Of a DNA stretch of 35,291 bases, positions 112 to 35,091 are shown one piece after another. A program made the position numbers and the translations under genes. The notes beneath the pieces are model-generated. The model searched no databases. It was given only the letters and a program-made list of their open reading frames with translations, and was not told the origin of the DNA. The stretch is from a virus, in IMG/VR virus record IMGVR_UViG_3300027733_000125, positions 1 to 35,291 of that record. One strand, written 5' to 3'. The number at the start of each line of letters is the position of its first letter. The first letter of the stretch is position 1.

Positions 112-138
112 TAAAAAAGCCGCTTAATAAGCGGCTTT
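112..138 (-). terminator. Rho-independent terminator of the fibre cluster
   Basis: A perfect inverted repeat, AAAGCCGCTT / AAGCGGCTTT (10-bp stem, 3-nt loop, 116-138), is followed on the minus strand by six T residues (118-113, partly overlapping the stem end). It begins 5 nt after the stop of the 910-aa fibre gene. It closes the minus-strand late operon. Read on the plus strand the T run is poor, so it probably works mainly in one direction. Confidence 0.92.
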
Positions 139-143
139 GTTTA

Positions 144-2876
144 TTACCAGGTACCTGTACCGTGTGCAGTTCGTTTCCAAATATCGGTAGTATTGTCCAC
201 ATAGTTAGCAGTGCAATAATACATGTAATCAGCATCAAATGCAACCATTCCTACTTTGTCTCCAGTTACACCGTAGCTATGTGCTGGTACTGCAACTTTT
301 TGATATGCAGTTGTTTGTATAGTAGTGTCAGGGAATGTTAATTGACCGCTTGAATTAAATTGCCATTGACTTGTTATACCACTGTTAACAATTACTTTGC
401 CGTAGGTGTTATCTTGGGCATTGCGTCCACCTTCTATATAAACATTTCCAGCAGTTTTACCTGTTGATGCACTACCACTTGGTAAATTTGAACCACGAAT
501 AACCAATGGTGCTGCAGCATTATTGGGTGTGAGATAATCATTAGTAAACGGTTGAACTACTATACCATCGTCGTAGTAAATATATAATTCTGGACCAGTA
601 CCGCCTGTGTTGTGTGATGGGTGCAATCCAATACCGTGACTAGCATGTATATAGTTTGGAGAAGTATCAATGAATGTAGAACCTGGTAATTTTAATTTAC
701 CATCTGTGCCAAATTTCCAATCATTGCCGTTGACACCAATTGCTGTTCCACTTGGTATATAATTTGCAGTATATAACGTTGCAGGGAATGATTTTCCACT
801 TACATTGTCAGTAGTTATCAGCCCACTATACGTATGATTTGGATATTGATTAACACTACTTCCGGTTACTTGTGAGCTAGACCCGTCCGCCCATCTGATA
901 TATGTTGTTGTTTTTGGCGTACGAGTAATCCAACCGTTGTAACCTTGTATAAGAGTACCCGATGTTACAACTGATCCAGTATATGGCACACCGGATTGGG
1001 CAAGTGTAAATCCAGCACCCGGATTGTCATTGTCTCTAAAATTTAAATCGCCCAACAACTGACCACCGACTATTATTTTTGTGTGCAGGTCAAAAGTTCC
1101 AGTGCTTGTGCCTGGTACAAAATCACCGTTTGTAGCAATAGTACCTGTTGTAGTAGTAGCATTTGGAACCGGAGGATCAAATAGATTATTATGTACAGTA
1201 TTGCCTATATTAACAACAGTTTCAGTTCCACCGGACAACGCGCCGCCTGTAGTGTTATTATAAATGTCAGAGGCATATGGACCATAACTGTAACCAACTT
1301 GTGATACTGGAGATATTGTAGACGCATTAGGCAATGTTAAGTTACTATTAGTACCAAATGTCCACTGATGTGTATTTAAATTAGTACCAACAACTACATT
1401 ACCTGCATTTTTCTCAATCTTAACATATTGGTCGTCATCACCTAAATACATGTCAACAGTAGTTGGATTACCAGCTACTAAATGTACGTGACTAAATTCA
1501 GAATTTGTTATACCGTTATTAGTTACAGTAACAAAGTGACCATCTGGTAAACCATTATATTCAAAATTGTGGTCTACGCCTGCTACTCCTACTGCACTAC
1601 CTAGTGTAAAAGTAAATGTTGTGATATTACTATTAGCAGGAATAGTCCATTGAATAGATTGTGGGTTTCCTGTGCCGCCGCCTGGGAATGTTATTTGACC
1701 AGTTAATGCACGACCTAATTGTTCTGCAGTGCAACCTGAGAATGTATAATTAACAGTTCCAAAATATTGTGAATCACTTGTAGTTACAAAAACAGCCTGA
1801 GAAGCACCGTATACAATATAACCGCTTGCGGTTACTGTCCACCCAACTGTAGTTGGACGAATAACTAAACTTTGCCCAGCAGCTGCAGTAGGTGGAGCAA
1901 ATGCTATAGTATTAGATGTTTCACTTACAATGCTACCTTGCGGTAATGTTAAGTTACCATCTGTTCCAAAAGACCATTGATGAGAATTAGCTTGTAATGT
2001 TAATGCACAGTTAGCATCTGCAGATAATTTTATGCTACCGTCAATATTAAGATCTAAATTCCCACTCCAACCTGTAAGATGATTTCCGTCTGTAGCAATA
2101 TTACCAGGTACTGTTAGTATACCATCGGACGCAAAATACCAACCTGCAGTTATTAAGTTATTTGGATCAGTTTCGTTAATTGCTTCTAAGCTAATACCTT
2201 CTCCGCTTGTAATATGAAATCCCATACCGACTCTAATAGAGGTATGTGCGCGATCAAATACAATTCCGCCATTTACTGGCAAGTTTAAATCGCCATTATT
2301 ATCAAATTTCCATTGATGTGCAGCAGTACTAAATTCGGTAGCAATAGTTGCACCAGTTGAATCAACCCACATCCAAGTTTCTTCGCTATGTGAATTGTCT
2401 GGTCCAATTGTTATACCTGTAAAGTTTAGTTCACCAGTACCGGCGACACCTTTTAATGTGCTACCGTTAATAATGCTGCCGTCTGCTAAATGTAATACGC
2501 CATTCGTATCTAATTCTAGTCTATAATGTTGATTTGGATTTGTTGCGTTTGTGTTATATAGTTTAGAAGTTGTAACTTGATCAATGCTATTTGTAGTAAA
2601 CCCTTCGCCTAATTTAACCCCGCCTAAAAATGACGGCGTGGCTACTTCGTTAAGTGCAGCTACCCCAGGAATGCCTTGTTCACCAACAACTCCCGGTATA
2701 CCTTGTGGTCCAATATCCCCAACAAAGAATGATAATGCAGACCAAGTTGATGTGCCGTTGCCAATTTTAATTTTGTCTAATGTAGTATCTAATCCAAGTT
2801 CGCCTTCGCTTAGAATAGGATTTACTGCCGTCCAGTTTGTAGTAGTATCCCTTCTTATTTGTATTTTATTTGCCAT
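144..2876 (-). CDS. Tail fibre protein, Mtd_N-like N-terminus, collagen-like linker, W-F-x-x-x-G-x-L-x-L-P repeats
   Basis: A 910-aa virion fibre or receptor-binding protein. Residues about 3-50 (IQIRRDTT..W, then GELG and KIGNGTSTW) match the N-terminal domain of major-tropism-determinant-type fibres (Mtd_N). A short Gly-X-Y stretch at 53-71 (GDIGPQGIPG) is collagen-like. The body has at least six spaced motifs such as HQWSFGTDGNLTLP and NDWKFGTDGKLKLP, typical of trimeric beta-structured phage fibres. The C-terminus (GMVAFDADYMYYCTANYV...IWKRT) is a common fibre tip ending. The start ATG overlaps the previous stop (TAATG) and has a strong GGAGGAG Shine-Dalgarno inside the upstream gene. It is the last gene of the late cluster, directly before the terminator. 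Receptor binding is inferred from architecture. Confidence 0.85.
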   Translation of the reverse strand: MANKIQIRRDTTTNWTAVNPILSEGELGLDTTLDKIKIGNGTSTWSALSFFVGDIGPQGIPGVVGEQGIPGVAALNEVATPSFLGGVKLGEGFTTNSIDQVTTSKLYNTNATNPNQHYRLELDTNGVLHLADGSIINGSTLKGVAGTGELNFTGITIGPDNSHSEETWMWVDSTGATIATEFSTAAHQWKFDNNGDLNLPVNGGIVFDRAHTSIRVGMGFHITSGEGISLEAINETDPNNLITAGWYFASDGILTVPGNIATDGNHLTGWSGNLDLNIDGSIKLSADANCALTLQANSHQWSFGTDGNLTLPQGSIVSETSNTIAFAPPTAAAGQSLVIRPTTVGWTVTASGYIVYGASQAVFVTTSDSQYFGTVNYTFSGCTAEQLGRALTGQITFPGGGTGNPQSIQWTIPANSNITTFTFTLGSAVGVAGVDHNFEYNGLPDGHFVTVTNNGITNSEFSHVHLVAGNPTTVDMYLGDDDQYVKIEKNAGNVVVGTNLNTHQWTFGTNSNLTLPNASTISPVSQVGYSYGPYASDIYNNTTGGALSGGTETVVNIGNTVHNNLFDPPVPNATTTTGTIATNGDFVPGTSTGTFDLHTKIIVGGQLLGDLNFRDNDNPGAGFTLAQSGVPYTGSVVTSGTLIQGYNGWITRTPKTTTYIRWADGSSSQVTGSSVNQYPNHTYSGLITTDNVSGKSFPATLYTANYIPSGTAIGVNGNDWKFGTDGKLKLPGSTFIDTSPNYIHASHGIGLHPSHNTGGTGPELYIYYDDGIVVQPFTNDYLTPNNAAAPLVIRGSNLPSGSASTGKTAGNVYIEGGRNAQDNTYGKVIVNSGITSQWQFNSSGQLTFPDTTIQTTAYQKVAVPAHSYGVTGDKVGMVAFDADYMYYCTANYVDNTTDIWKRTAHGTGTW

Positions 2877-3235
2877 TATGCGGCTCCTCCGTTGATTAGC
2901 ATATCTGTAAATGTATCTGTAGTAGCGTTACCGCCGTCAAAAATTAGATCCTCAAATATTGTAGAAGCAAAACCGTTATCTACAGTTGCAGATGTATTAT
3001 ATAAATCTAGTGCATTATTTGGGTCGTCATAAGTAGCAGTTAAACCAAACAGAGTACCGTTGGCTATCATTTCTGCTATTGTGTCTTGTATAAGTTCTTT
3101 TAGATTGGCAGATGATCCGCCAGTGAATGTGTACAATTCCTCAAAGTTAGCATTAACTTTATTAAACGCGGCGAATAAACTATCACCACTTCTGTCGTTC
3201 GGAACTGTACCTGTTTTAATAATTAATCGTGACAT
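2876..3235 (-). CDS. Short phage baseplate/fibre connector-like protein
   Basis: A 119-aa protein. Its N-terminus (IIKTGTVPNDRSGDSLFAAF then NKVNANFEELY) is the sequence found at the start of many T4-like aquatic phage structural proteins, where it is thought to attach fibres to the baseplate; the rest is acidic and unrecognised. It is the first gene of the last late unit and its stop overlaps the start of the 910-aa fibre, so the two are probably made together and may form one fibre. Translation start: GAGGA lies 6 nt before the ATG, within the 3' arm of an 11-bp hairpin (3239-3276) whose loop carries a late-promoter octamer. This suggests the gene is silent in read-through RNA and translated only from late RNA. 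Function is inferred from family resemblance. Confidence 0.7.
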   Translation of the reverse strand: MSRLIIKTGTVPNDRSGDSLFAAFNKVNANFEELYTFTGGSSANLKELIQDTIAEMIANGTLFGLTATYDDPNNALDLYNTSATVDNGFASTIFEDLIFDGGNATTDTFTDMLINGGAA

Positions 3236-3238
3236 AAA

Positions 3239-3276
3239 TGATCCTCATTCTAATATTTATCGTAAAATGAGGATCA
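3239..3276 (-). promoter_or_regulatory. Perfect 11-bp inverted repeat: RBS-sequestering hairpin with late promoter in the loop
   Basis: The arms TGATCCTCATT and AATGAGGATCA (3276-3266 and 3249-3239 on the minus strand) are fully complementary, with a 16-nt loop. The 5' arm covers the stop codon of the upstream glycosyltransferase gene; the 3' arm contains the GAGGA ribosome binding site of the next gene. The loop contains GATAAATA. No run of T follows, so it is not a typical terminator. The arrangement matches what is known for T4 gene e, where early RNA hides the site and late RNA, starting inside the hairpin, does not. Confidence 0.75.
3254..3261 (-). promoter_or_regulatory. T4-type late promoter octamer GATAAATA
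   Basis: Minus-strand GATAAATA in the gap between the glycosyltransferase operon and the 119-aa gene. Counting the usual 5 nt after the octamer puts the start at about 3248, giving a leader of roughly 13 nt that keeps the Shine-Dalgarno but loses the 5' arm of the hairpin. Confidence 0.65.
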
Positions 3277-3948
3277 ACACGTATTGGTAGTTGTATAAAG
3301 ATGTAATACCGGGTAAGATGTGTCTAAATAACATTCAAACCCATGCACTGCTGCTCTAACAAAAAATGCTCTGTCTTCCCAAGTAGTACATGATAAATTG
3401 TAAATTGGATTATAGTTTACACCAGCTAATAATACGTTTCTTTTAATTAAATAACACCCGCCGATCATACCAACTTTGTACAATCCGGGTGTTCTAAATA
3501 GTCCTATAGGAAAATTACCAAACTCATAAAAATCAGACATCCATGCATTTGGCATCTCTTCTTCACTAGATTTCCATTTAGTCCAAATTACTTCGCCAAC
3601 AATGTCTTTATCTAATGATAGTAGATGCTGTAGCATATCAGGGTGGGCAATCTGATCACTATCAAATGTTAAAAAATAATCGTAGTTATTAACTTTTGCG
3701 TAATTTAATAACATATTACGCATAATTCCAACTTCTTTTAAATTCTTAGGATTCCATATATGCGGTTTATATAGTGTGCTAGTGTTAAACTCTATATACT
3801 CGTTATCATTTAACAATGGTTTTAAATGCGGAGAATTATGTAGTATAAAGAATAAATCAAAATCACCTTCCATTTCTCGTAATGCTGTAATATACTGTTC
3901 AAAAATTTCAGTAGTTTGATTCACTGGTGCGCCGACTAATATTTTCAT
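3274..3948 (-). CDS. GT-A fold glycosyltransferase (GT2-like)
   Basis: A 224-aa protein, likely a nucleotide-sugar-dependent glycosyltransferase. The N-terminus (MKILVGAPV) is the first beta strand of a GT-A fold. FLTFDSDQIAHPDML carries the metal-binding DxD (Asp96-Ser97-Asp98) and typical following residues. Later come MIGGCYLIKR (Gly163-Gly164), TWEDRAFF with Glu191-Asp192 as acceptor-base candidates, and a late His216, in the order expected for GT2-like enzymes. The length fits a single catalytic domain; no membrane segment is seen. Its ATG overlaps the stop of the preceding glycosyltransferase by 4 nt, so translation is coupled. Location among fibre genes suggests it modifies a fibre protein or a host surface sugar; the substrate cannot be read from sequence. 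Confidence 0.8.
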   Translation of the reverse strand: MKILVGAPVNQTTEIFEQYITALREMEGDFDLFFILHNSPHLKPLLNDNEYIEFNTSTLYKPHIWNPKNLKEVGIMRNMLLNYAKVNNYDYFLTFDSDQIAHPDMLQHLLSLDKDIVGEVIWTKWKSSEEEMPNAWMSDFYEFGNFPIGLFRTPGLYKVGMIGGCYLIKRNVLLAGVNYNPIYNLSCTTWEDRAFFVRAAVHGFECYLDTSYPVLHLYTTTNTC

Positions 3949-5073: not shown

Positions 5074-5964
5074 TTATCCTGTATTATGCATCAATAATCT
5101 TTCTGCAAAATATACCTTTGCATTAGCCACTGATATATTACCAACTTGAACGCCGTCATCGCAATGAATAGGGTCCACCGAGGTTACACCAGTATATGAT
5201 AGATCTGCTGATAAAAGCTCATCATCAACTAATACATCTTTTGATTCTACCCACATAGTAACACCGTTTCTACGTATCCAGACTTCATGTTCTGGGGTTG
5301 GTTCTACTATAGAATTATTTGCGCAGGTAATACGTATTAAGTTATACGAAGTATTTGTATCTAGTACGAACGTTACTTTTTCGTTAGACATTTCATGAGT
5401 ATGTGGGTCAATTGCTTTTACGGTATCACCGACTTTAATACCTCCTATAGCATTTTGAGTATTATCAGCCATCGTAATTAGTGTATGTGTTGGTAAACAC
5501 GTCCAAGTTATATTTAATATACCAGAAACTCCGGATGCTACATGAGTCGCTTTCACATACCCAACATTGTTGCCAGGGCCAGGACTTGAAATGTAACTTG
5601 CAGCAGTTAATGTGTATGGTCTTGTGCGCAAAGTACCAACTGTTGGAAAGTTAGAATATATTGCCCAGGTTAATAATGTGCAGTCTGTGCTAGTAGTACT
5701 GTTTGAGTAGTTTATCAGTACAGTCCAAGTATTTGCATAATCTACCCATGATGCTGCAGTAGGACCGGAAATCACAATTGATGTAATTGACGGAGGTCCA
5801 TTACTCTTCCCGTACCCATCACTCATTGCAATAGTACCACTAGGTTTTACAAACAAAGTACGGACAGTTGTTTGATCCATTTGAATAGAAGTAGTACCAG
5901 TTAACGCAAGTTCTACATTAACTTGATTTAAGGATATTGCTGATCCTGCTGTGGGTAATGCCAT
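5074..5964 (-). CDS. Tail protein with C-terminal Hint (intein-like, BIL-type) domain
   Basis: A 296-aa two-part protein. Residues 1-55 (MALPTAGSAISLNQVNVEL ... AMSDGYGKSN) are the short N-terminal domain of many phage tail proteins; residues 57-155 look like an Ig-like beta domain. The last 140 residues form a Hint domain. Cys156 begins CLPTHTLITMAD; IGGIKVGDTVKA is the usual following strand; TPEHEVWI (223-230) is the block-B-like TxxH motif with His226; and ISVANAKVYFAERLLMHNTG ends it, with His293-Asn294 at the splice or cleavage junction followed by only Thr-Gly. This predicts self-cleavage at Cys156 or Asn294, as in bacterial intein-like domains, rather than splicing of two large parts. 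Cleavage might activate or crosslink the tail domain. The domain call is strong; the processing is inferred. Confidence 0.82.
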   Translation of the reverse strand: MALPTAGSAISLNQVNVELALTGTTSIQMDQTTVRTLFVKPSGTIAMSDGYGKSNGPPSITSIVISGPTAASWVDYANTWTVLINYSNSTTSTDCTLLTWAIYSNFPTVGTLRTRPYTLTAASYISSPGPGNNVGYVKATHVASGVSGILNITWTCLPTHTLITMADNTQNAIGGIKVGDTVKAIDPHTHEMSNEKVTFVLDTNTSYNLIRITCANNSIVEPTPEHEVWIRRNGVTMWVESKDVLVDDELLSADLSYTGVTSVDPIHCDDGVQVGNISVANAKVYFAERLLMHNTG

Positions 5965-32199: not shown

Positions 32200-32976
32200 T
32201 TAAAATTCGCCACCGTCCATGTTTTGATTTAACAGTGAAGATTGCACGTCCCATTGACTTGTTGTTTCGTTGTATACTAATAATGAGCCGTCTAATAACC
32301 CTGTGCTGTTCACGTCAGGAATGTCTATAACTTTATTTATCTGGTTCCCGGGAATACCTTGATCCCCTTTCTCACCCGATACATATGGAAGATCATTCCA
32401 ATGTAATATGCCATCTCCAAGTTTGAATGTATTTGTATCTATTTCAAATGCTAATTCACCGTCACCTAATATTGGATTTACATCAATCCATAGTTGCGCA
32501 GTTGCTCTACGAATTGGCGCACTTGTGATAGAACCAATAACGTTTATTATACCATTATTGATTTCTAAACCGGCGCCAATCTTAACACCACCTAATGTGG
32601 TACTAGATGCAACTGGTAATGTATAGGTTGACCCCGATGATCCTGATGATCCAAATGTAACTTCGCTCCAATTTATTTCAGCATTAGGAACTGCACCTGT
32701 AGAAGTACTTCTAACTTCTCCGCTTTGTAATTTGTATGTATAGTACCGATCACCTGTTCTAGTATATGATCCAGATACGTACTCGTTTTTAATATACACT
32801 AACATACCTTCTTGTATGCGTTGTCCAGGTATATTAGTTAGTTGATCATTAGGTAATCCAGTAATACTTTGTAGTGTACCACGAAGTTCTGTATCTAATG
32901 CAATTGGCGCATTAGTAGCAGGACTCCACGTACCTGGCCAAGTGTTTCTTGTTAACCCGTCATAGTTAGCTGCCAT
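32200..32976 (-). CDS. Fibre connector with Mtd_N-like segment
   Basis: A 258-aa protein. The N-terminus (NYDGLTRNTWPGTWSPATNA) and the segment GMLVYIKNEYVSG resemble connector proteins of T4-like aquatic phages. LGGVKIGAGLEINNG (about 128-142) is the same motif as in the 748-aa and 688-aa fibres. Residues about 155-198 (RRATAQLWIDVNPILGDGEL, NTFKLGDGILHWNDL) match an Mtd_N-type domain, here internal rather than N-terminal, and GEKGDQGIPG (201-210) is a short collagen-like piece. The end (LLVYNETTSQWDV ... MDGGEF) is acidic. The ATG overlaps the stop of the 688-aa gene (TAATG). It likely links fibre segments. Confidence 0.7.
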   Translation of the reverse strand: MAANYDGLTRNTWPGTWSPATNAPIALDTELRGTLQSITGLPNDQLTNIPGQRIQEGMLVYIKNEYVSGSYTRTGDRYYTYKLQSGEVRSTSTGAVPNAEINWSEVTFGSSGSSGSTYTLPVASSTTLGGVKIGAGLEINNGIINVIGSITSAPIRRATAQLWIDVNPILGDGELAFEIDTNTFKLGDGILHWNDLPYVSGEKGDQGIPGNQINKVIDIPDVNSTGLLDGSLLVYNETTSQWDVQSSLLNQNMDGGEF

Positions 32977-35042
32977 TATGAAATGCTCACGTAAGTTGCA
33001 CCCGATTGTAAAGTAATTCCGTACAATTGATAATTTTCAGAAACATAATCAGATAATGGTGCATCGGGTGCGAGTGCAACAGTACTGCCATTGGTGTATG
33101 ATACGTCACTTAATAATCCAGCACTTGCCCCTGTTTTAAATGTAGTTGGTTGAGGTGCTGAACTTCTTACTGCAAACCAAAACGCCCGTGGATTTGCATT
33201 TGAATTTGTAATTGATTGTGTTGCTAATGTTTTAACTTGATCACCTAATACAGTAACTCCAACTTCAACACTAGTATTATTAATTATGTCAGCTCTAGTT
33301 GGAACTAATAGTACACTGGCTGTCCATAACCAATAAGTTGGATATGTAAAACTAGCAGCTGCTGCAACATCAGACGAATTTGCAGGACCAAGCGTAACAT
33401 TATACGCAGTGCCTGTTACTGTAACAGGTCTAGATGCAGTAGATGTTAATGTCACATATCTAGCAGTAGATTTGTTACTGTGATTAATTGGAGCAGTAAA
33501 TGTCATAGTACCACTTGCAGTAGTTGACGATACTGTTCCGTTTGTACCGCTAATTAAAAATGTTCTGTTACCTGCTGATATAGCTGATGCAGTTGGTGTG
33601 TAAGTAGTTGAAGTATACGCATCAAGGAATGTTTTTCCAGTTAATGCAGTAATTGCAATTGAATGCGATACTGTATTCCAGTTAACTGAAAATGTTGTAG
33701 TTGTACTCCAACTAGCTGTTGTTGTACCGTTATAATAATTAAACGCAACTACTCCACTTGCTGTACCACCAGTTGCAGAAGTTGAAGTGGATCTAATGTA
33801 CGATGTAGAATTGTTAGTAGTAAAACTTTGATTCCAGTCTACGCCTCCAGCAGGTGTAACACTATACGCTCCTGCAGTATAATTTCCAAGTGTTGTAGAA
33901 ATTGATCCAGTTGATTGTGTAATTGTTGCAACACTATTAATATATTGAGTAGGTACGTCAGCTGGATTATCAACAGTAACAGTAAATCCAGTTGCAGGAA
34001 TATCCCAATTTAATGTTGAGCCTGCAGATGACACTGCACTTACGGTTGGTGTAAACGTTGCTAATGTTAATCGTAATGTACTACCTGAAAATTCTGCAAC
34101 CCTAACTGTGTTAGTGACATCATTTTCTTTATAACCGGTAAGTGTGCGATAATTGCCGTTAGTTGACCAAACTAATGATTCACTTGCAGCAATAGATAAC
34201 CCTATCGGTCCTTGTGGTCCAGTGTCACCTGTATCGCCTGTTAGTCCAGTATCACCTTTGATGCCTTGTGGTCCTTGTGTACCTTGAGGACCGGCGATAG
34301 TACCAACATCGGTCCATTGTGTTAAATCAATTGGGTTGTCAGTATTACACACCCACAAATGGCCTAACACCATGTACCCATCACCGATAATTGCAGTGGT
34401 TAACAATTCTAGTTCAGAGGTTGAGGGTTTTTCACCTTTAAGTTTAATAGTACCAGGATTTATGCCGCCAATAAGTGTTGCTGCTGGTAATGAAATGCCA
34501 CCATCGGCTGTACCTGTTATAGCTCCTTGACCAAGATAAATGGTGTTTGTTGAAAAATACCCAGTTAATGCATGTATTGATGCAAAACGAGCATCTGGAC
34601 TACCGAGGTTTATAGTTCCGTCAACATCTGGATATATGTCTGATGCAAGTAACCCGCCTACTGTATAGTCAATACTAATTGTTCCGTTAGCACTAAGAGT
34701 AATGCCGCTTCCAATTTTAACAGCACCTAGTTGAGTAGCAGTTGCTGCTGATGACGACGATACAGGATTCCATAAATTGTCATATCTAAGGTATAATCTA
34801 TGTTCAGCAGTGTTCCACCAAAATGTTCCACTACTTTCAGAAGTTGGAGGAGTATTACTTGATATTACTGATGCAGGATTACCAGAGGCACCAAGAGTGA
34901 TAGGGATACCTCCAGGAGTAACCCCGTCGGATAGTCTTAGATCGCCAATTTCTTCATTATAAAATATAGTTCCAATTACACCAACATACTCGTCGGCTTC
35001 AATGGTTGTAACACGTCCTGATTTAATCTTTTGAATAGTCAT
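32976..35042 (-). CDS. Collagen-like tail fibre (688 aa), first gene of the late unit
   Basis: A 688-aa fibre. The head (TIEADEYVGVIGTIFYNEEI, GDLRLSDGVTPGG) is a classic T4-like aquatic phage attachment domain. LGAVKIGSGITLSANG is near 105-120. Ten Gly-X-Y triplets (GPQGTQGPQGIKGDTGLTGD and on, 251-281) form a collagen-like rod. The rest is Ig-like beta structure with IPATGFTVTVDNPADVPTQY and a long Ser/Thr-rich region. The ATG at 35042-35040 has no Shine-Dalgarno; an AATAAATA octamer ends only 4 nt before it, so the predicted transcript start falls at or next to the A of the ATG, and this RNA could be leaderless. No better start codon is seen downstream within the conserved head. A collagen-like trimeric fibre is a safe call. 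Confidence 0.82.
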   Translation of the reverse strand: MTIQKIKSGRVTTIEADEYVGVIGTIFYNEEIGDLRLSDGVTPGGIPITLGASGNPASVISSNTPPTSESSGTFWWNTAEHRLYLRYDNLWNPVSSSSAATATQLGAVKIGSGITLSANGTISIDYTVGGLLASDIYPDVDGTINLGSPDARFASIHALTGYFSTNTIYLGQGAITGTADGGISLPAATLIGGINPGTIKLKGEKPSTSELELLTTAIIGDGYMVLGHLWVCNTDNPIDLTQWTDVGTIAGPQGTQGPQGIKGDTGLTGDTGDTGPQGPIGLSIAASESLVWSTNGNYRTLTGYKENDVTNTVRVAEFSGSTLRLTLATFTPTVSAVSSAGSTLNWDIPATGFTVTVDNPADVPTQYINSVATITQSTGSISTTLGNYTAGAYSVTPAGGVDWNQSFTTNNSTSYIRSTSTSATGGTASGVVAFNYYNGTTTASWSTTTTFSVNWNTVSHSIAITALTGKTFLDAYTSTTYTPTASAISAGNRTFLISGTNGTVSSTTASGTMTFTAPINHSNKSTARYVTLTSTASRPVTVTGTAYNVTLGPANSSDVAAAASFTYPTYWLWTASVLLVPTRADIINNTSVEVGVTVLGDQVKTLATQSITNSNANPRAFWFAVRSSAPQPTTFKTGASAGLLSDVSYTNGSTVALAPDAPLSDYVSENYQLYGITLQSGATYVSIS

Positions 35043-35059
35043 ACTGTATTTATTGTATG
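35040..35059 (-). promoter_or_regulatory. Late promoter octamer AATAAATA in a 5-bp stem-loop over the start codon
   Basis: Minus-strand AATAAATA (35054-35047) lies inside CATAC-N10-GTATG (35059-35055 and 35044-35040), where the 3' arm contains the ATG of the 688-aa gene. Read-through RNA from the bS21 gene would place the start codon in this small stem, while RNA started at the late promoter would not contain the 5' arm. The stem is short, so this is weaker than the 3239-3276 case. Confidence 0.45.
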
Positions 35060-35091
35060 CTAAACAAAAGATTAATCAGAAGTTTGTTTGA

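Follow-up and report, generated by a model that had tools for sequence, protein, structure and literature searches.

A late promoter in the loop of a conserved hairpin, a probable T4 gene e-type switch, ahead of a baseplate/tail-fibre connector-like gene of uncultured giant phages

Analysis of a viral DNA stretch of 35,291 nt (the window) identified a hairpin (hairpin 1) that carries a T4-type late promoter in its loop and, in its 3' arm, the Shine-Dalgarno (SD) sequence of the gene which follows, coding for a protein of 119 aa. The element is real and conserved and is of the type found in the lysozyme gene e of phage T4: the device is already known, the kind of gene and the phage are new. Its recognition is based on the sequence, the predicted fold, the enrichment that defines the promoter class, conservation among relatives and one compensated base change.

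Hairpin 1 probably acts as a switch of the gene e type. RNA entering from upstream has both arms and would fold, so that the SD and, in part, the AUG of the 119-aa gene would be hidden. RNA begun at the loop promoter GATAAATA would lack the 5' arm, since its predicted start is at about position 3248, and would be open to ribosomes. The connector protein would then be made in the amount that its own promoter dictates, whatever fibre cassette is located upstream.

The core of the element is an 11-bp perfect inverted repeat whose arms (3239-3249 / 3266-3276) are 16 nt apart; GATAAATA lies between them on the minus strand. Read on this strand from 3276 to 3239, the stem comprises 14 pairs, the 11 perfect outer pairs and three inner ones including one G-U, and the loop is 10 nt long; the order of the parts is TGATCCTCATTTTA CGATAAATAT TAGAATGAGGATCA TTT ATG. 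Hairpin 1 makes up nearly all of the intergenic gap (3236-3273) between the 224-aa gene and the 119-aa gene, and the start codon of the latter (ATG, 3235-3233) is predicted to be partly paired too in most contexts. An earlier note on this DNA had described a perfect 11-bp repeat filling the gap, with a stop codon in the 5' arm and GAGGA in the 3' arm, all of which was confirmed from the sequence. The same note had placed both a late promoter and the RNA start in the loop: the promoter is located there, but the predicted start at 3248 falls inside the 3' arm.

Folding of the 61-nt region, a check proposed in the earlier note, gave -19.8 kcal/mol (z = -4.9), and none of 200 shuffled sequences folded as well. 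Perfect stems of at least 11 pairs with loops of 4-30 nt occur three times in the window, against a mean of 0.28 in shuffles; such a stem with ATAAATA in the loop appeared once in 200 shuffled windows. A search of Rfam yielded no match, and neither did a near-identity search of the phage collection.

Table 1. Position of the two hairpins and of the neighbouring features in the window.
Feature	Position	Strand	Remarks
Hairpin 1, 5' arm UGAUCCUCAUUUUA	3263..3276	-	includes UGA of the upstream gene (3276-3274, first three stem bases)
Hairpin 1, loop CGAUAAAUAU	3253..3262	-	predicted fold
Hairpin 1, 3' arm UAGAAUGAGGAUCA	3239..3252	-	holds SD GAGGA (3246-3242)
T4-type late promoter GATAAATA	3254..3261	-	site and enrichment in G001; RNA start 3248 predicted from T4 spacing
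119-aa gene behind hairpin 1	2876..3235	-	N-terminus like T4 gp9/gp10 baseplate-fibre connector (phrog_677, 1.6e-10; PF07880, 1.5e-5)
910-aa tail-fibre-like gene	144..2876	-	Mtd_N N-terminus; start overlaps stop of 119-aa gene; own SD GGAGGAG
Intrinsic terminator	116..138	-	closes the 119-aa/910-aa unit; terminator scan
224-aa upstream gene	3274..3948	-	weak Anp1-like glycosyltransferase match; other genes in its place in most relatives
Hairpin 2	35018..35079	-	two stems, 23 pairs together; 10-nt loop (35054-35045) with late promoter AATAAATA (35054-35047); inner stem contains start codon
688-aa tail-fibre-like gene behind hairpin 2	32976..35042	-	late RNA predicted leaderless

The sequences found in the 60 nt before genes were counted in two related genomes of 372 kb, G001 and G002. 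ATAAATA was the most enriched upstream 7-mer, with 58 occurrences in G001 and 42 in G002 (4.6 and 3.3 expected, respectively), an enrichment of 12-fold in the two relatives; GATAAATA occurred 23 times in G001, against 1.2 expected, and 18 times in G002, against 0.9. The ATAAATA of hairpin 1 lies at -25 from the ATG, which is the genome-wide modal position in the relatives. In the window overall, ATAAATA is not enriched (12 sites vs 20 expected); on the coding strand it precedes the genes starting at 3235, 7733, 17228, 26534 and 35042. Matches to gp55-like late sigma factors were found in both 372-kb relatives (the G001 protein matched the late-sigma family phrog_12791 at 1.1e-74), the window itself being a 35-kb fragment. 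The family of the T4 coactivator gp33 was searched for in the relatives and not found. The assignment of GATAAATA as the T4-type late promoter of this phage group, with the class defined by enrichment, is well supported by these sequence data and agrees with the late promoter proposed in the earlier note.

The distances between ATAAATA and the gene start were found to be bimodal in G001 and G002: the main group lies between -23 and about -56, the second between -9 and -14, and the interval separating them is empty. The second group has 17 entries, several of them orthologous, and includes the window gene starting at 35042; promoters so placed would give leaderless late mRNAs.

For each late site, two opening costs of the start region were calculated, and the one for the RNA started at the promoter was subtracted from the one for the read-through RNA. 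The difference at hairpin 1 was 15.8 and 14.9 kcal/mol in the two relatives and 14.7 kcal/mol in the window, the mean over 105 sites being 2.7, and was the largest of all late sites in G001, G002 and the window. It amounted to 10.7-15.8 kcal/mol across the contexts of all relatives, and no shuffle of the upstream sequence (0/200) reached the value of the window. For a start inferred from T4 spacing, the late RNA of the 119-aa gene has an opening cost of 2.8 kcal/mol. Pairing of the SD and/or the AUG in the read-through RNA was predicted in the window and in all relatives with the element. By predicted fold and by opening cost, the SD is predicted to be buried in the read-through RNA and only there, as had been claimed earlier, and we infer that translation of this RNA would be blocked. 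Extension of the block to the 910-aa protein, which the earlier note had considered, is doubtful, because this gene has a strong SD of its own (GGAGGAG).

The same comparison serves as a simple genome-wide test. Eight of the 100 late sites of G001 and G002 reached p <= 1/150, and the remainder were chance-like (median p 0.51). The 119-aa gene and the tail sheath gene are among the eight in both genomes, and the gene behind hairpin 2 is among them in G001; a homing endonuclease and a RusA-like Holliday resolvase also belong here. The endonuclease and the resolvase, which the test picked unprompted, may be regarded as a useful and unplanned positive control, because structures of this sort are known in T4-type phages for genes of these two kinds: I-TevI and mobE for the former, gene 49 (endonuclease VII) for the latter (PMC3014915, PMC2988022).

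Three late-promoter regions of the relatives have features of their own. In the tail sheath genes (G001:28210-31641 and G002:88029-91397) the late promoter lies within a start-occluding structure, at p <= 1/150 in both. In the homing endonuclease gene (L118:2867-3694, equivalent to G001:262867-263694), GATAAATA is accompanied by a hairpin that covers the SD, AGGAGG, an arrangement like that of I-TevI and mobE. The divergent genes G001:32372-33142 and 33197-34630 have in common a near-palindromic bidirectional late promoter, TATTTATC...GATAAATA, and the SDs at its two ends can pair together.

Hairpin 1 was found to be kept in 17 related contigs, behind seven different upstream genes. Eight representatives, with seven distinct sequences of the hairpin, were aligned. 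The stem is kept: 11 of the 14 pairs are invariant, the G-U pair is present in every sequence, and one A-U pair is changed to G-C in both arms (L016/L017). Two pairs, both outermost, are broken, one in L005 and one in L016. This was the comparison for compensating changes that the earlier note had proposed; the covariation found amounts to one event, equalled in 60 of 500 shuffles and so without excess over the shuffled controls. In L007, GCTAAATA stands in place of GATAAATA. When orthologous late promoters were compared over their 14 upstream nt, 13 of 14 positions were identical at hairpin 1, against a mean of 68%; three other sites are identical at 14/14, and this measure is weak when taken alone.

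The close homologues L018 and L019 have neither the late promoter nor the hairpin. When distant relatives were sought by alignment, no further carrier of the hairpin was obtained, and those with ATAAATA nearby showed opening-cost differences of -0.9 to 2.8 kcal/mol; a scan of the genome contigs for the 119-aa protein returned no relatives. Since both the close homologues without a late promoter and the distant ones with ATAAATA lack it, hairpin 1 is, as judged from these comparisons, a feature of this lineage.

The upstream genes change right beside the 5' arm, as would be seen if the hairpin were a by-product, namely a conserved stretch at which tail-fibre cassettes recombine and which has no role as RNA. 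This explanation is quite improbable: a change in one arm is matched by one in the other, the rarity of comparable perfect stems around ATAAATA in the shuffled windows speaks against it, and the strength of the occlusion, measured as opening cost, is seen again at this gene in all contexts. It is very improbable that the stem is a transcription terminator or a 3' stabiliser of the upstream gene. It does lie at the 3' end of that gene in the window, but in most relatives it is 6-238 nt away from the nearest called upstream stop. There is no U tract; the U run is of 3 at most and is not conserved, the bases from stem to start being UUU, AUU or UAAU-like in the relatives. The terminator scan, which finds the terminator at 116-138, did not call hairpin 1.

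The window contains a second promoter-in-loop hairpin, which by its sequence has the same layout as hairpin 1 and is different in sequence (hairpin 2; z = -6.8 for the fold). Its relatives, with 4 distinct sequences only, showed one compensated change, two changes that preserve pairing and none that disrupts it. The outer stem alone is retained in G002, where the effect is small. The late RNA of the 688-aa gene is predicted to be leaderless because the promoter is at -11.

This pair of hairpins bears on the possibility that the palindrome of hairpin 1 acts as DNA, as an operator at which a dimeric protein would cover the promoter. A precedent is I-TevI, which binds in this manner at its own late promoter, and the dyad of hairpin 1 is near-perfect, is centred on the promoter and occurs as a single copy per genome. 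Against an operator stand hairpin 2, which matches in layout and differs in sequence, and the stem G-U pair kept in every sequence; moreover, the dyad covers the SD and involves the AUG in partial pairing, and no repressor is known. We consider an operator improbable and retain the reading of hairpin 1 as an RNA switch.

What such a switch would be for is less certain than its mechanism. The upstream genes for which matches were obtained are tail-fibre-like, and several are preceded by late promoters, of which this strand carries four upstream of the one in hairpin 1. The earlier note had called the upstream genes glycosyltransferases; for the 224-aa gene this label depends on the Anp1 match, which is sub-threshold (25.0 vs 28.8 bits). 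Further upstream on the minus strand, at 5074-5964, a 296-aa protein has a weak match of the intein/Hint type in its C-terminal half (1e-4, below the cut-offs).

The purpose proposed earlier was timing, as in T4 gene e, in which the hairpin would silence early and middle RNA from upstream until late transcription. The anatomy is the same as that of gene e, and the T4 genes for which such regulation is known are found on RNAs that code for early and middle products as well (PMC2988022). The upstream genes here, however, look late, being tail-fibre-like and with late promoters of their own. The early motif TTGCTATAAT has its sole match on the minus strand of the window at 79-88, downstream of the unit; the one minus-strand site in G001 (269460) is likewise downstream, beyond a 782-aa gene, and there is none in G002. 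Timing against earlier RNA is, on this evidence, rather unlikely. The early-type promoter at 79-88 lies directly past the terminator and perhaps marks a boundary between late and early genes.

Insulation of the 119-aa gene against late read-through from upstream is the most probable purpose, given that the genes ahead of it look late and are swapped among relatives. A caution is that, in this window, ribosomes terminating at the UGA within the stem would partly open hairpin 1 for a time. More tentatively, hairpin 1 may be a portable insulator, by which fibre cassettes could be exchanged upstream of a conserved connector with the dose of the latter unchanged; where the cassette region ends on the other side, a second version would trap the start codon of a leaderless late mRNA.

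Several T4-type genes offer a comparison. In soc, 49 and I-TevI of T4 and mobE of Aeh1, the SD or the AUG is paired in the longer RNA and freed in the RNA from the late promoter (PMC3014915, PMC2988022). In the opening-cost scan of the jumbo relatives, a homing endonuclease and a RusA-like resolvase rank high, in line with these cases, whereas the 119-aa gene is a baseplate/tail-fibre gene. T4 genes 25 and 38, likewise of the baseplate and tail-fibre class, have structure in their start region too. It is placed, however, between the SD and the AUG, where it improves initiation (PMC3014915), while hairpin 1 is predicted to hide the SD. No description of a promoter-in-hairpin device for baseplate or tail-fibre genes was found in the part of the literature covered by a search with ATAAATA, late promoter, tail fiber and hairpin.

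The closest likeness is to the leader of T4 gene e, the textbook case, which has the late promoter TATAAATA in the loop and the SD in the 3' arm, and whose late RNA lacks the 5' arm; its predicted opening-cost difference, calculated on the same scale for the downstream promoter, is 13.9 kcal/mol, compared with 14.7 kcal/mol in the window. In T4 the structure lowers lysozyme synthesis about 100-fold (PMC3014915). The two differ in what is guarded against: early RNA and early lysis in T4, and here, for a tail connector, incoming RNA that is apparently late. A T4-type arrangement known from a few genes is in this way extended to tail genes of uncultured giant phages, with a different use suggested, protection from variable late transcription upstream.
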